Positions 4,562 to 10,999 of a DNA stretch of 60,759 nt are shown here, piece by piece. The stretch lies in assembly GCA_025062275.1 (NCBI GenBank), contig JANXAP010000031.1:1-60759 (forward strand), written 5' to 3'. Positions within the stretch are counted from its first letter, which is position 1; each line of letters begins with the position of its first letter. This DNA comes from Dehalococcoidia bacterium (GTDB lineage Bacteria; Chloroflexota; Dehalococcoidia; SM23-28-2; HRBIN24). The notes below the pieces were generated by a model. That model searched no databases and was not told where the DNA came from. It worked only from the letters and a program-made list of their open reading frames with translations. The position numbers were made by a program, and so were the translations under genes.

Positions 4562-5152
4562 CTACAGCACCCCTTTTGTGCTGGGCACCTCGCCCCCCAG
4601 TCTGGGCTCGGGACGGGTGGCCTGGCGCAGGGCCAGAGCGAGGGCCTTGAAGGCCGCCTCGGCCCGGTGGTGGTCGTTCTCGCCGGAAAGCAGTCGCACA
4701 TGCAGGGCGAGCCGCCCGGCCTGGGCCATCGCGCCCAGGAAGTGGGGCACCATCTCGGTAGGAAGAGTCCCCAGGTAGTCCCTACGGAAAGGCAGCTCGA
4801 CAGTGGCATACGGACGCCCGCCGAGGTCCACCGCCGCCAGGGCCAGCGCCTCGTCCATGGGCACGAGGGCATGCCCGAAACGGACGATCCCCCGACGCTC
4901 TCCCAGGGCCTCGTTCAGGGCCTGCCCCAGGGCCAGCCCCACGTCCTCCACCAGGTGGTGGGCCTCCCGGTCCAGGTCGCCCGCGGCCTCGATACTTATG
5001 TCGAACAGGCCGTGCCGGGCCAGCTGCTCCAGCAGGTGGTCCAGCATGCCGATGCCGGTGGCGATGCTGCTCAGCCCGCGGCCGTCCAGGTCCAGGGCCA
5101 CCTCCACCCGGGTCTCGGCTGTCTCGCGCAGCACTCGCGCCTGCCTGTTCAT
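4562..5152 (-). CDS. hisB: Imidazoleglycerol-phosphate dehydratase HisB
   Basis: A 196-aa monofunctional dehydratase that converts imidazole-glycerol phosphate to imidazole-acetol phosphate in histidine synthesis. The two internally repeated His-rich metal sites are visible: GIGMLDHLLEQLARHG with DREAHHLVEDVG, and later VPHFLGA with GENDHHRAEAAFKA. There is no fused phosphatase domain as in the enteric enzyme. The ATG overlaps the hisC stop (ATGA), so it is coupled to hisC. The frame stays open upstream inside hisC, but the conserved N-terminus fixes this start. Confidence 0.95.
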   Translation of the reverse strand: MNRQARVLRETAETRVEVALDLDGRGLSSIATGIGMLDHLLEQLARHGLFDISIEAAGDLDREAHHLVEDVGLALGQALNEALGERRGIVRFGHALVPMDEALALAAVDLGGRPYATVELPFRRDYLGTLPTEMVPHFLGAMAQAGRLALHVRLLSGENDHHRAEAAFKALALALRQATRPEPRLGGEVPSTKGVL

Positions 5153-6273
5153 GTCCCCTCCCTGTCCAGGGAGGCCAGCGCCTCCAGCAGCCTGTCGGTG
5201 TCCTGAGGTCGTCCCACGCTGATGCGGATGCAGTCCCGCAGGAGGGGGTGGCTGTAGCGACGGACCAGCACCCCCTGTCGGCGCAGCCCGGCCCACACCT
5301 CTTTGGCGTCCCTGCCCAGGACCTGACAGAGAACGAAGTTGGCCTGCGAAGGGAAGGGCCTCAGCCAGCCGATGCTCCCGAGGGAGGCCAGCATGCGTTC
5401 CCGCTCGGCCACGATGGCCCGCACCCGCTCCAGCAGCAATGGCACGTCCTCCAGCGAGGCCAGGGCAGCGGCCTGAGCGGCCACGTTCAGGTTGTAGGGC
5501 ATCTTCACCTTCATGACCAGCTGGGCGAGGGGCCGCGGCAGGATGCCATATCCGACCCGGAGTCCTGCCAGGCCAGCCCACTTGCTGAAGGTGCGCAGGA
5601 CGGCCAGGTTGGGACGTTCGGGCACCAGCGGGTAGAAGCTGGCCTCGGCCGCCGGCCAGTCGGCAGCAGCGAACTCCACGTAGGCCTCGTCCACCACCAC
5701 CAGGGCGCCCGTTGCCAGCAGCGTCTCCAGCTCTTCACGCGAAAGCACGTCACCGGTGGGGTTGTTGGGAGAGGCCAGGAAGCAGACCTTACCGCCAGCG
5801 CGCAGGGCGGAGGCCATCCCCTCCACGTCCAGGCGGAAGCCGTCGCGGCGGGGCACCTCCACCACCTCTCCCCCGTACAGGCGGGCGATGAAGTCATACA
5901 TGCCGAAGGTGGGAGGCGACAGCACCACCCGGTCGCCGGGGCCGACGAAGAGCCGCGCCAGCACGTCCAGCAGGTCGTCGGAGCCGGCGCCGCAGACGAT
6001 GTGGGCCTCGTCGACACCCAGGCGATGGGCCAGGGCCCGGCGCAGCTCCCGTTGCCATGGGTCGGGATACAGATGGGCCGAGGCGAGGCGGGCCAGGGCC
6101 TCCCGCGCCCGCGGCGAGGGGCCGTAAGGGTTCTCGTTGCCGTCCAGCTTGACGATGCGCTCCGGCGGCAACCCTAGCTCCCGCGCCACCTCCTCCGGCG
6201 GGTCTATGGGCTCGTACCCCTCCATCGCGCGCAGGTGGGGGCGGGCCAAGGGCGGCAGACAGGGATCGCTCAT
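5149..6273 (-). CDS. hisC: Histidinol-phosphate aminotransferase HisC
   Basis: A 374-aa fold-type I PLP aminotransferase that converts imidazole-acetol phosphate to histidinol phosphate. Visible features are KLDGNENPYGPSP near the N-terminus, the cofactor Asn in SPNNPTGD, the Asp/Tyr in VVDEAYVEF, the Schiff-base lysine in TFSKWAGLAGLRVGYG, and the phosphate-binding Arg. The ATG (MSDPCLPP) overlaps the hisD stop by 4 bp, and the hisC stop overlaps the hisB start, so hisD-hisC-hisB form a tightly coupled block. Confidence 0.95.
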   Translation of the reverse strand: MSDPCLPPLARPHLRAMEGYEPIDPPEEVARELGLPPERIVKLDGNENPYGPSPRAREALARLASAHLYPDPWQRELRRALAHRLGVDEAHIVCGAGSDDLLDVLARLFVGPGDRVVLSPPTFGMYDFIARLYGGEVVEVPRRDGFRLDVEGMASALRAGGKVCFLASPNNPTGDVLSREELETLLATGALVVVDEAYVEFAAADWPAAEASFYPLVPERPNLAVLRTFSKWAGLAGLRVGYGILPRPLAQLVMKVKMPYNLNVAAQAAALASLEDVPLLLERVRAIVAERERMLASLGSIGWLRPFPSQANFVLCQVLGRDAKEVWAGLRRQGVLVRRYSHPLLRDCIRISVGRPQDTDRLLEALASLDREGT

Positions 6274-7595
6274 GGCCGTCGGTAGCGGGCCTCGATGGCC
6301 AGGGCATGGCCCGTCAGGCCCTCGGCCCGGGCCACCCGAGCGGCTGCAGGCCCCAGCCGAGCCGCCTCTTCGGCTGAAAGCCCCACGTAGGCCGTGACCT
6401 TCAGGAAGTCCCACACGCCCAGGGGCGACGAGAAGCGGGCGCTGCCCCCGGTGGGCAGGACGTGGCTGGGGCCGGCCGCATAGTCGCCCAGCGACTCGGC
6501 CGACATGGGCCCCAGGAAGACGCAGCCGGCATTGCGCACCCGCCCCAGCCAGGCGGAGGCATCGGGCAGGTGGAGGCACAGGTGCTCGGGCGCCAGCTCG
6601 TTGGCCAGCTCCAGCGCCTCCTCCAGGCTATCGACGACAGCTATCATGCCCCGTCCCGTCAGGGAGGCACGCGCTACCTCCCGCCTCGCCAGCGAGTCCA
6701 GCCTCGCCTCCACCTCCTGCAGAACGGCGCTGGCCAGGGCCTCGTCGGTGGCGATGAGTATGCAGGTAGCCAGCTCGTCGTGCTCGGCCCCCGCCATCAG
6801 GTCGGCTGCCACCAGGGACGGGTCGGCCGTAGCATCGGCGACGATGACCGTTTCCGAGGGGCCGAAGAGGCCATCGATGCCCACCTGGCCGAAGAGCCGC
6901 TTCTTGGCCGTCGCCACAAAGACGTTGCCGGGGCCACATATCTTATCGGCCCTCGGTATCGACTCGGTGCCGTAGGCCAGGGCGGCGATAGCCTGCACAC
7001 CCCCGGCACGGTAGATGCGCTGCACGCCAGCGATATGGGCCGCCACCAGCTTGACGGGCGCCACCGAGCCGTCCGGGCGGGCAGGGGTACACATGACCAG
7101 CTCTTCCACCCCCGCCACCCGCGCCGGCACTGCAATCATGAGCACGGTGGAGGGATACACGACGGCGGTTCCGGGGGCATAGATGCCCACCCGCTGCAGG
7201 GGCCTCACCAACTGCCCGCAACCGTCGGCCTGGAAGGGGCGCTGGGCATGTTCCAGCTGCCGACGGTGGTAGGCCTCCACCCGCTCGCTCACCTGGCGCA
7301 GGGCCTCCACCAGCTGCGGCTCGACCTGGGCGTAGGCTGCCTCCACCTCTTGAGGCGCGACCAGCAGCGGTACTTCCTCGGGCACGCCGTCCAGCAGGGC
7401 GTTGTAGCGGGCCACCGCCGCATCGCCCTCCCGTCGCACCTCGTCCAGCACCCGCTCCACCACCTGTTCCACCGTCAGCTCCTGCCCGAAGGTCTCGACG
7501 ATGCGGCGGCGGACAGCGGGAGGGAGGTCTTCCTCCACAGGGGGGCAGGCCCGCAGCCACTCCAGGGCTGCCCTGAGCCCGCGCACTACGCGCAA
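6270..7595 (-). CDS. hisD: Histidinol dehydrogenase HisD
   Basis: A 441-aa enzyme for the last two oxidation steps of histidine synthesis (L-histidinol to L-histidine, NAD- and zinc-dependent). The conserved CGPGNVFVATAKK, GAEHDELAT, ELAPEHL and GPSHVLPTGG blocks supply the zinc ligands and catalytic His residues. I chose a TTG at 7595 because AGGAGG lies just upstream. It overlaps the end of the preceding gene by 10 bp; a GTG at 7586 is the alternative. The frame is open for about 120 further codons upstream without the family pattern. Confidence 0.93.
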   Translation of the reverse strand: MRVVRGLRAALEWLRACPPVEEDLPPAVRRRIVETFGQELTVEQVVERVLDEVRREGDAAVARYNALLDGVPEEVPLLVAPQEVEAAYAQVEPQLVEALRQVSERVEAYHRRQLEHAQRPFQADGCGQLVRPLQRVGIYAPGTAVVYPSTVLMIAVPARVAGVEELVMCTPARPDGSVAPVKLVAAHIAGVQRIYRAGGVQAIAALAYGTESIPRADKICGPGNVFVATAKKRLFGQVGIDGLFGPSETVIVADATADPSLVAADLMAGAEHDELATCILIATDEALASAVLQEVEARLDSLARREVARASLTGRGMIAVVDSLEEALELANELAPEHLCLHLPDASAWLGRVRNAGCVFLGPMSAESLGDYAAGPSHVLPTGGSARFSSPLGVWDFLKVTAYVGLSAEEAARLGPAAARVARAEGLTGHALAIEARYRRP

Positions 7596-8341
7596 AGGTA
7601 CCTCCTCACGGCCTCCAGGCCCCTGGCCACCGAGTCGTCCAGGAAGGCCTGGACACGCTCCCACGACAGGTAGCGGACGGCCTCTTCGGCTACATCGGGC
7701 AGCAGACGCAGGAAGTCCTCCAGCGCCTCGGCCGTCTCGATGCCCGCGTCCTTCAGGTAGCGGCTGGCTATGCGACCGAAGCGGTCCCAGCTGGGCGGCT
7801 GCTCCAGCAGCTCTCGCACCAGCTGGCGCCAGCGCCGCAGCGTCTCGTCGTCGATGAATCCCACCTGGAGGGCCACCTCGTCCTGCGCCAGCTCGCCCAC
7901 GATATGCCGCACCAGTTCGGCGTCGCTGCGGCCGCGCAGGTCCAGAGACCACTGCAGCGCCCGGTCCATGATGTTGGCCCAGGGCCGGCCGCCCAGGGGG
8001 GACCGCTCACCGAAAAAGGGGCGGTACACCTGGGTGATCCATGTCTCGTCCATCACCAGGTGTGTAATGTATCCGGCCACGAAGGAGGCCGTCCTGGGCT
8101 CGAGGCGGGACGCCTCGGCGAGGTGCGGATGGGTGCGGAACAGCCCCTCTACCCCGCTCTGCTCGTCGAAGTTGTCCAGGTCGAAGAAGTGGGTCTGGCG
8201 CCTGTCCCAGCGGGTGATGACGCGGATATCGGGGGCGGTGGCGCCCAGGTAGAGGGCGCCCCGCTCCCTGTCCAGCAGACTGCTTCCGAGGCGGTCGGCG
8301 ATGTCCTTGGCCACGACCGTGTGCAGGCCCAGGGGCGGCAT
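7586..8341 (-). CDS. Zinc-dependent phospholipase C-like protein in the his operon
   Basis: A 251-aa protein resembling the zinc-dependent phospholipase C / S1-P1 nuclease-like family (PF00882). The start MPPLGLHTVVAKDIAD, the segment YLGATAPDIR, the THFFD block and AGYITHLVMDETW provide the expected His/Asp metal ligands. Most of the chain is predicted helical. No signal peptide is evident, unlike secreted phospholipases, so a cytosolic or membrane-associated hydrolase is more likely. The ATG at 8341 is preferred (GGGTGA six bases upstream); a GTG at 8350 is possible. It lies between hisG and hisD, overlaps the hisD start and follows hisG by 13 bp, so it is co-transcribed with histidine genes without an obvious pathway role. 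Confidence 0.75.
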   Translation of the reverse strand: MPPLGLHTVVAKDIADRLGSSLLDRERGALYLGATAPDIRVITRWDRRQTHFFDLDNFDEQSGVEGLFRTHPHLAEASRLEPRTASFVAGYITHLVMDETWITQVYRPFFGERSPLGGRPWANIMDRALQWSLDLRGRSDAELVRHIVGELAQDEVALQVGFIDDETLRRWRQLVRELLEQPPSWDRFGRIASRYLKDAGIETAEALEDFLRLLPDVAEEAVRYLSWERVQAFLDDSVARGLEAVRRYLCA

Positions 8342-8354
8342 TGGTGTCACCCGA

Positions 8355-9767
8355 CTACATTCTAGCAGAGGCGGCTACTGCCCCACGGGCCAGTCGCTCC
8401 AGCAGGGACGACAGTAGCCGCCCCCGTGGGCCCTGAAGGCTGCCCCGCCGCACGATGACGCAGGTGGTGGAGCGGAAGAGGACATCGATGGCCTTGAGCT
8501 GATTCTCGACCAGGGTCCGTCCCGTCTCGGTTCCCTCGATGAGCAGTTCGGCGTCCTCGGGCACGAAGCCCTCCGAGGCCCCGGCAGTGGGGATGACGCG
8601 ATAGCGCCAGAAATGGCGGCTGCGAGCGTAGTGATCGGCGATGCTGACGAATTCCGAAGCGATGCGCACCGTCCCCACCCCTCGCTCTCGCCAGTAGCGC
8701 AGCGCGTCGGCCAAGCTTTCGGCGGGCAGGTCGGCTGCCACCACGGCGCTGACGTTGAAGGCGCCTCGGCCCAGGTCGAGGGCCATTTCCACCGGGCTGG
8801 ACGGGAAGCGGTAAAGGTGCTCCAGCAGGCAGTCGCGGCCGCTGACGGCCAGGTCGAAGTTGCCCAGTGCCACCATCTGGGGCATGTCCTGGGGCCGCAC
8901 CACCTTGACCTCCACCCCCTCCAGGCGCGAGCGGGGGCGTCGCTCGCCCTCCGCATAGCCCTCGAACTCCAGTCCTGCCTCGGCCAGGGCCTCCAGCACG
9001 TGCCGCTGCTGGTGGCCGTCGGGGAGGGCGATGCGCACCGTCGTCCGCTCCTGGGGAGGAGCAGCGGGCGCCACCCGCGTCAGGGACAGGGGCGGGGGCA
9101 GCGAGAGGCCCTCCCCCGCCTCCAGGCCACAGTCGGCCAGCAGCGAGAGCAACCAGCCCATGTCCTTACCGCGCAGGCTGTGGCGGTTGACGATGACCCA
9201 GGCCCTGCCCTGCAGAAGGCGGTGCAGAGGCGCCAGCCCCTGGGCGGCAAGGGCCGACTCGTCCGTTGCCGCCACCACGGCCAGGTCGGCGTCCTCCGGC
9301 GGATAGGCCTCGGCCGCTCCCCAGACGGGAACCACCCGATAGGCAGGCAGGCGGGCGGCCAGGGCAAAGGCCTCGGCCAGATTGGGGAACTCGGATACGA
9401 TGCGCACCCCCCATCGACCGGCCAGGTCGCGCAGGCCGCCCCACTGGCCAGATGCAGCCGCCACCCACACGGATGTGCCTCCCACTGGCAGGCCTCCCAG
9501 CCGCACGACATCCCCCCTCGGGTAGCGGCACAGGAACTCCTCCACCCAGTGGAGACCGCAGATGCCGATGTCGTAATTCCCCAGGGCGATCTGGATGGGG
9601 ATGTCTCGCTCGCGGAAGACCCGCACCCGCAGGGGGCCATCGCCCTCGGCGGGCAGACGATAGGCACGGGAGCCTTCGCCATAGCCCTGCACTCGCAGGC
9701 CGGCCCGCTCTAGCAGAGCAGCGAGAGGGCGACGCAGGTCGCCCGTGGGCAGCGCTAACTTTATCAA
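8355..9767 (-). CDS. hisG: Tandem (two-domain) ATP phosphoribosyltransferase HisG
   Basis: A 470-aa protein made of two HisG short-form catalytic domains in a row. The family normally has one domain of about 210 aa and joins ATP to PRPP in the first step of histidine synthesis. Copy 1 spans residues 1-212: KLALPTGDL, RDIPIQIALGNYDIGICG, RIVSEFPNLAEA. Copy 2 spans residues 243-462: RIALPDGHQ, QDMPQMVALGNFDLAVSG, RIASEFVSIADH. Copy 2 keeps the PRPP loop GTETGRTL (412-419). In copy 1 the matching stretch (166-173, AATDESAL) has lost the Gly-Arg-Thr-Leu core, so copy 1 is probably catalytically dead. A linker of about 30 residues rich in Pro and Ala joins them. The start is a TTG overlapping the hisZ stop (TTGA), so the two are coupled. 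Confidence 0.9.
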   Translation of the reverse strand: MIKLALPTGDLRRPLAALLERAGLRVQGYGEGSRAYRLPAEGDGPLRVRVFRERDIPIQIALGNYDIGICGLHWVEEFLCRYPRGDVVRLGGLPVGGTSVWVAAASGQWGGLRDLAGRWGVRIVSEFPNLAEAFALAARLPAYRVVPVWGAAEAYPPEDADLAVVAATDESALAAQGLAPLHRLLQGRAWVIVNRHSLRGKDMGWLLSLLADCGLEAGEGLSLPPPLSLTRVAPAAPPQERTTVRIALPDGHQQRHVLEALAEAGLEFEGYAEGERRPRSRLEGVEVKVVRPQDMPQMVALGNFDLAVSGRDCLLEHLYRFPSSPVEMALDLGRGAFNVSAVVAADLPAESLADALRYWRERGVGTVRIASEFVSIADHYARSRHFWRYRVIPTAGASEGFVPEDAELLIEGTETGRTLVENQLKAIDVLFRSTTCVIVRRGSLQGPRGRLLSSLLERLARGAVAASARM

Positions 9768-10999
9768 GCTCGGCTCTCCCCTTGGGTCAGGAGGGCCAGC
9801 GCCCGCTCCAGGTCGGCAGCACCCAGCTCGCGTCCGTCCGCCAGGACGACGGCGTAGCGGCCCTCGGCCAGTCGCAGACGCGGGGCGCCCGCCTGGTCGG
9901 GCGACAGGACCACCTGGGCCTGCCGCCCCCACTCCCGTAGCAGGCGCACGGCCCGGAAGGCCTCCGCTATCTCCTGCGGGCTTCGCCCCGGAGCCTCCAC
10001 CCACACAACCTGGCCATCGCCGCGCTGGGGCGGAGTCAGCAGGTCCAGCAGCTCTCCCATATAGAGGGCGAAGCCGGAGGCCGGGACGTCGCGGCCGCCC
10101 AGAAGCCCGATGAGGGAGTCGTAGCGGCCGCCGGCCCCCACCAACCGATCGCCCACCTGGAAGCGGAAGACGGGCCCCGTGTAGTACTCGAAGTGGCGCA
10201 CCAGTGCCCCCGACACAGTAGGCGTCAGGCCCAGCCCTTCCAGGGCCGATACCACCGTCTCCAGCTCGTCCAGAGGCGCTCCCAGGTCGGGCAGGGCAGG
10301 GAGGAACACGGAGCGCAGGTTGCGCAGGTAAGCGAGGCCCTGCCCCTCCTCTGTCAGCAGCAGTTCTGGCGGTGCGCCCAGTTCGGGAATCCGCTCGCGG
10401 ACGCGGGCCAGGGCCTCGGCATCGCCCTCCAGAATGCCGTCGTAGAGGCGGAGCCGCTCCTCGGCCGGAAGGTCCAGCTTGGCGAGCAACGCCTGGACCA
10501 GCCCGGGGTGCGACACCCTCAGTGTCACATTGGCTAACCCTAACGACAACAAGACCTCCCGGGCCACCAGCACCAGCTCCACGTCCCCCAGCGGCTGCGT
10601 GTCGCCGATGAGCTCCACGCCTGCCTGCCATTCCTCTCGTCGCGCCTCGCCCTCCGCAAAGCGAAACACGTTCTGGACGTAGAAGAGCTTGGCCAGCGGC
10701 TGCCCCGACAGATGCTCCACGTAGAGGCGAGCGGTGGGGATGGTGCCCTCGGGGCGCAACACGACCCGTTCGCCGCTCCAGCCGTCCCAGTCCAGGAAGG
10801 AGTAGACGCGGCCCAGCGCCTGTGGCGTGAGGGTGCCAGTAGCGGTGAAGAGGAACAGATGCTCGACTGTCGGGGTGCGCACCTCGTGGTATCCCCAGGC
10901 CAGGCAAGTGCGGCGAAAGACCTCCTCCGCCCACCGGAAGCGCTCCATGTCGGCCGGCAGGAGGTCGTACATGCCGCGACAGCGCAGGGGCTCGCCCAT
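9764..10999 (-). CDS. hisZ: ATP phosphoribosyltransferase regulatory subunit HisZ (HisRS-like)
   Basis: A 411-aa class II aminoacyl-tRNA-synthetase-like protein. RCRGMYDLLPADM at the start, RPEGTIPTARLY, QNVFRFAEGEARREEW (a degenerate motif 2) and RHFEYYTGPVFRFQVGDRLVGAGGRYD are the HisRS-type blocks. Its place directly before the short-form hisG identifies it as HisZ, which binds HisG to form the active, histidine-inhibited complex; a true HisRS is less likely. About 90 C-terminal residues could be a reduced anticodon-binding-like domain. I chose the ATG at 10999, because the likely -10 box covers the alternative ATG at 11047. First gene of the his/pur operon. Confidence 0.85.
   Translation of the reverse strand: MGEPLRCRGMYDLLPADMERFRWAEEVFRRTCLAWGYHEVRTPTVEHLFLFTATGTLTPQALGRVYSFLDWDGWSGERVVLRPEGTIPTARLYVEHLSGQPLAKLFYVQNVFRFAEGEARREEWQAGVELIGDTQPLGDVELVLVAREVLLSLGLANVTLRVSHPGLVQALLAKLDLPAEERLRLYDGILEGDAEALARVRERIPELGAPPELLLTEEGQGLAYLRNLRSVFLPALPDLGAPLDELETVVSALEGLGLTPTVSGALVRHFEYYTGPVFRFQVGDRLVGAGGRYDSLIGLLGGRDVPASGFALYMGELLDLLTPPQRGDGQVVWVEAPGRSPQEIAEAFRAVRLLREWGRQAQVVLSPDQAGAPRLRLAEGRYAVVLADGRELGAADLERALALLTQGESRA

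Follow-up and report, generated by a model that had tools for sequence, protein, structure and literature searches.

A fused, asymmetric variant of HisG with one PRPP loop per chain, encoded next to a HisZ-like gene in Dehalococcoidia

The tandem hisG gene and its surroundings

The window, i.e. the whole stretch of 60,759 nucleotides analysed here (contig JANXAP010000031.1 of assembly GCA_025062275.1, from a Dehalococcoidia bacterium), carries on its minus strand a cluster of his genes in which one open frame encodes two HisG domains in a single chain of 470 residues (Table 1). The frame runs from a TTG start codon at 9767 to a stop codon ending at 8355, and its start overlaps the stop codon of the HisZ-like gene upstream (cTTGA). 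Downstream on the same strand follow an ORF lacking a Pfam match, hisD, a hisC-type aminotransferase gene and hisB; hisI is found elsewhere in the genome. A preliminary description of this DNA had placed a tandem HisG at 8355–9767, and these coordinates are correct, the strand being minus.

Table 1. Features of the tandem hisG locus (positions in the window)
Feature	Positions	Strand	Remarks
Tandem hisG, 470 aa, TTG start	8355–9767	minus	open frame; PF01634 and TIGR00070 each match two stretches
Copy 1 (residues 1 to about 211), PRPP loop lost	9135–9767	minus	PF01634 69.3 bits at 9168–9614
Linker between the copies (about residues 212–243)	9039–9134	minus	lowest model confidence of the chain
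Copy 2 (residues 244–470), catalytic candidate	8355–9038	minus	PF01634 91.1 bits; best TIGR00070 stretch 244–439
PRPP loop of copy 2, EGTETGRTL	8511–8537	minus	loop residues present in all 64 proteins
Degenerate PRPP loop of copy 1, VAATDESAL	9249–9275	minus	intact in 0/64 of the family
Arg34 of copy 1, corresponding to Arg56 of P. arcticus HisGS	9666–9668	minus	alignment column
HisZ-like gene (start codon estimated)	9764–10999	minus	PF13393 166.8 bits
ORF, 254 aa, between tandem hisG and hisD	7586–8350	minus	no Pfam match in a profile search at 1e-5
hisD (start estimated)	6270–7500	minus	PF00815 498.7 bits
hisC-type aminotransferase gene (start estimated)	5149–6270	minus	PF00155 228.9 bits
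hisB, imidazoleglycerol-phosphate dehydratase (start estimated)	4562–5200	minus	PF00475 204.5 bits

The claim of two HisG domains in one chain of this length is borne out by both family models, each of which matches the protein twice. The Pfam HisG model PF01634 gives 155.1 bits over two stretches, with both copies above the cut-off of 25.5 when scored separately (91.1 bits at 8391–8897 and 69.3 bits at 9168–9614), and the two NCBIfam TIGR00070 matches score 195.2 bits against a cut-off of 75.75. The protein is thus neither a single-domain HisGS chain, as it contains two domains, nor a long-form HisG, as PF01634 alone matches and the chain ends after copy 2, leaving no C-terminal regulatory domain. 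The genome to which the window belongs (1.81 Mb, 95% complete) yielded no second HisG.

The window comes from a draft assembly of 41 contigs, and a fusion produced by misassembly, by a frameshift or by chance was therefore considered. A stop codon or frameshift between the halves had been named beforehand as the observation that would overturn the fusion; instead, many independent genomes carry the two-domain frame unbroken, dozens of them within the class and including the single-contig genomes G037, G075 and G101, which rules out an artefact of assembly. Together with the low identity of the two copies of the window protein (only 33%), this leaves the artefact or chance reading barely credible. 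The tandem hisG is real, and it is a conserved variant of the HisG-HisZ system that is fused, asymmetric and equipped with one PRPP loop per chain.

Divergence and common origin of the two copies

To compare the copies across the family, 64 tandem proteins were aligned with 41 single HisGs, and the PRPP loop was called intact from D/E176, S/T180, G181 and S/T183 in Psychrobacter arcticus numbering. By this measure all 41 single HisGs and all 64 copy 2 sequences have an intact loop, and none of the 64 copy 1 sequences does. The motifs reported earlier for the window protein, GTETGRTL in copy 2 (here as EGTETGRTL) and AATDESAL in copy 1, were both recovered, and the absence of a PRPP loop from copy 1, first noted in this one protein, is accordingly a property of the family (0/64). 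At the level of the PRPP loop, the possibility that both halves are active can be rejected. Copy 1 is nevertheless not decaying freely, as judged from the alignment: it is strongly conserved, with many invariant positions, and its mean pairwise identity across the family is 0.47 versus 0.54 for copy 2.

In a phylogenetic tree, copy 1 and copy 2 form sister clades on a joining branch supported at 100/98, the root not being fixed, and the stem of copy 1 is longer than that of copy 2 (0.92 vs 0.38). An AU test rejected trees that place copy 2 with the short-form HisGs apart from copy 1 (p = 0.005). These two results reject independent origins for the halves, and the sister relationship of the copies therefore identifies the event as duplication plus fusion, as had been proposed from the window alone. 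Grouping the tandem copies together with the short-form HisGs was not rejected (p = 0.256), although the tree places the tandem apart. Among single HisGs, L003 and L005, long-form genes of the same class, come closest to the tandem in tree and motif; they also carry some of the changes that are common to both copies and absent from most single HisGs.

An AlphaFold2 model of the tandem chain has a pLDDT of 91.8 and a pTM of 0.86, with the lowest confidence of the chain in linker residues 231–240 (pLDDT 62). Its best Foldseek matches are HisG catalytic cores and HisGS chains, at a target TM of 0.8–0.87 for one half, each match aligning only one half of the tandem. Both halves are thus confidently predicted to fold as HisG, and the pTM suggests a defined arrangement of the halves relative to each other, making a covalent pseudo-dimer plausible on the strength of the model.

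The nearest known systems are the short-form HisGS-HisZ complexes (Lactococcus lactis 1Z7M, Thermotoga maritima 1USY, P. arcticus 5M8H and Acinetobacter baumannii 8OY0), with which the tandem shares a HisG catalytic fold lacking a fused regulatory domain and a HisRS-like neighbour gene. Known HisGS, however, pairs two identical single-domain chains and has two active sites, whereas the tandem consists of two diverged, fused domains with one PRPP loop; moreover, both of its HisG copies and its HisZ-like protein are divergent, membership of the short-form clade having the p value of 0.256 given above. The hexameric long-form HisGL has the same catalytic fold, but the tandem has a second catalytic-type domain in the place of the C-terminal regulatory domain. 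No description of a tandem HisG was found in the open-access papers searched, and two papers on fusion and elongation of his genes do not mention one; domain databases may list the architecture. It is conserved, yet the standard family model matches it simply as hisG.

Distribution, the HisZ-like partner and candidate activity

Relatives of the same order that have a HisG match carry two domains, usually in one frame, the exceptions being G018, with a partial match only, and G008 and G019, whose two domains are split between contigs. A scan that covered 84,980 species with one genome apiece, and that detects close relatives only, found 52 related loci, one or two of them shortened by contig ends; all come from records titled Chloroflexota, Chloroflexi or Dehalococcoidia-type, except 'Bacterium HR24'. 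Among the 140 sampled genomes of the class with any HisG match, 89 have at least two such matches by a hand count from the table. The tandem was not found in the sampled Chloroflexota outside the class, where three genomes have two matches; in two of these the matches lie on different contigs and in the third they are fragments of a single domain. The small complete genomes G037, G075 and G101, with 19–28 reductive-dehalogenase matches, have the tandem as their sole HisG. In genus g214, which otherwise carries the tandem (G306 and G347 were compared), three genomes that are about 95% complete have no HisG match (G315, G331 and G365), possibly through loss of histidine synthesis or through assembly gaps.

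The tandem had been described as adjoining HisZ, and a HisZ-like gene indeed lies directly upstream in 67 of 68 tandem loci, a set in which a few represent the same genome twice and the sole exception has 204 bp of upstream sequence. In the window this protein obtains similar scores from the hisZ and hisS models, each below its cut-off (TIGR00443 187.7, TIGR00442 186.3), and the genome encodes a clear HisS besides it (482.8 bits). The HisZ-like proteins of the window and of the tandem loci L033–L084 form a clade of their own (100/99), apart from HisS and from other Chloroflexota HisZ. By sequence the partner is HisRS-like and divergent. In the same tree, HisS is one clade set against all other rows, so that an independent origin of this HisZ is not supported.

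All 19 tandem genomes compared have two or more HisRS-like matches, though in G313 one of these is partial, and 16 single-HisG genomes, picked by hand for comparison, have one full-length HisRS-like copy each, with a weak partial match in addition in G031 and G333. The association is one-way, because eight long-form loci of the class (L004, L006–L008 and L010–L013) also have an upstream, weaker HisRS-like match; long-form HisG should need no HisZ, yet these loci adjoin a HisRS-like gene. The idea that a HisRS paralogue marks the tandem alone was rejected for this reason. One of these long-form genomes, G027, has two HisRS-like genes, the one upstream of HisG being a long-branched second HisRS paralogue.

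Within family f38, the tandem-HisZ pair and a long-form HisG both occur, in alternation, and G320 carries a HisG of long-form size as well as the tandem plus HisZ (L146, L151). Replacement of one form by the other speaks for a shared function, and the pattern in f38 and G320 argues for the tandem as a working ATP phosphoribosyltransferase, at present a candidate activity. The pathway context, in which the tandem is the sole HisG of its genome and lies inside a his gene cluster, likewise supports its putative formation of PR-ATP from ATP and PRPP. The alternation within one family also provides a natural comparison of two solutions to one regulatory task.

Cross-dimer arginines and the pseudo-dimer model

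Two arginines of P. arcticus HisG act across the dimer: Arg56 extends to the pyrophosphate/PRPP in the site of the other subunit (PMC9734150), and Arg73 contacts the γ-phosphate of ATP bound in the adjacent subunit (PMC10998830). Positions that are conserved in single HisGs sort between the two copies of the tandem. The Arg56 column holds R or K in 52 of the 64 copy 1 sequences and in about 1/64 of copy 2 as aligned, a count that depends on the alignment as some copy 2 loops carry nearby arginines. Retention of this column in copy 1 and its loss from copy 2 are what a pseudo-dimer with its live site in copy 2 predicts, and, combined with the conservation of copy 1, the kept Arg56 column points to a role of copy 1 as a catalytic helper.

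With a probability of roughly 0.6, we favour an asymmetric covalent pseudo-dimer that has one catalytic site, in copy 2, and a helper in copy 1. The tandem would be the ATP phosphoribosyltransferase of the first step of histidine synthesis, working with a HisZ-type activator. An ancestral single hisG was duplicated and then fused, and the chain would fold like a HisG dimer made covalent, its two catalytic sites reduced to one. Copy 2 would carry the PRPP loop and the substrates, while copy 1, having lost PRPP binding, would serve as a permanent dimer partner, its arginine stabilizing in trans the pyrophosphate leaving group of the copy 2 site, and would help to build the docking surface for HisZ. 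Catalytic competence, pseudo-dimer geometry, the action of copy 1 in trans and the composition of the complex are inferred from the comparisons above.

The preliminary description had seen copy 1 as a scaffold or a second regulatory surface, which is probably incomplete given its strong conservation and its retention of a trans-arginine position that copy 2 has lost. The strictest form of that view, a purely structural scaffold and HisZ-docking surface contributing no active-site residue, would fit the loss of the PRPP loop in 64/64, the longer stem of copy 1 (0.92 vs 0.38) and the 12 of 64 copy 1 sequences without an Arg56-type residue (R or K), but the fact that copy 1, and not copy 2, has kept the Arg56 column makes it quite improbable. 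The same 12 sequences, and the arginines near that column in some copy 2 loops, count against the favoured pseudo-dimer.

The trans residues do not all fall to copy 1, as Arg73 goes to copy 2: all 64 copy 2 sequences keep it, within an R-P-Q/H-D-M-P motif that never varies, compared with only 18 of the 64 copy 1 sequences. A single site in copy 2 would predict the reverse, and the distribution of Arg73 either is real counter-evidence to the pseudo-dimer or hints at a nucleotide still held by copy 1. Copy 1 could thus be a non-catalytic sensing site that binds ATP, ADP or AMP, not PRPP, and reports the energy state to the live site, the nucleotide being held partly by Arg73 of copy 2, which is invariant and would face the copy 1 cleft. 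The retention in copy 1 of Glu163 (63/64), Gly160 (64/64) and, in many members, K-G-R would agree with such a site. However, the K-G-R motif is lost in part of the family, the window protein included, the conserved motif around Arg73 may have a structural role, and there is no direct sign of a nucleotide, so that we regard this reading as unlikely.

The two roles could also be combined, in that the PRPP-dead half would both complete the single site in trans and hold a nucleotide-sensing site, with a diverged HisRS-derived partner as activator. This proposal is speculative and very unlikely to hold in full, but if true, the symmetric four-site HisG-HisZ octamer would have been replaced in one class by an asymmetric form that has half as many catalytic sites and gains a further input for sensing the energy state.

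HisG-HisZ serves as a model of allostery: catalysis is activated across a dimer interface by a dead tRNA synthetase. HisZ, a dead HisRS, and the trypanosomatid pair of AdoMetDC and prozyme exemplify enzyme-pseudoenzyme pairs in which a dead paralogue activates the live one. As in the AdoMetDC-prozyme pair, one duplicate of the tandem would be catalytic and the other a non-catalytic partner; unlike that pair, the two are fused in one chain, and the family has a further pseudoenzyme, HisZ, already serving as its activator. In many bacteria of one Chloroflexota class, what is normally a symmetric pair of enzymes thus seems to have been turned into a fixed live-plus-helper pair. With the halves of the dimer separately encoded and one site removed, cis and trans residues can be changed independently, which is impossible in a homodimer.

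Copy 2, the catalytic candidate, is itself an unusual, non-canonical HisG by sequence. It shows an invariant D-G-H-Q-Q where canonical HisG shows K-G-R-L, has His in place of Arg32 in 64/64, and lacks Cys115, with Val, Phe or Tyr at that position; the absence of these two residues weighs against the favoured model. Loss of Arg32 was not accepted as proof of a dead copy 2 and is by itself no sign of lost function, because Arg32 is also missing from many single HisGs of the phylum. Over residues 249–254 (about 9006–9023, minus strand), the tandems have a nearly invariant P-D-G-H-Q-Q as against the canonical start motif P-K-G-R-L.
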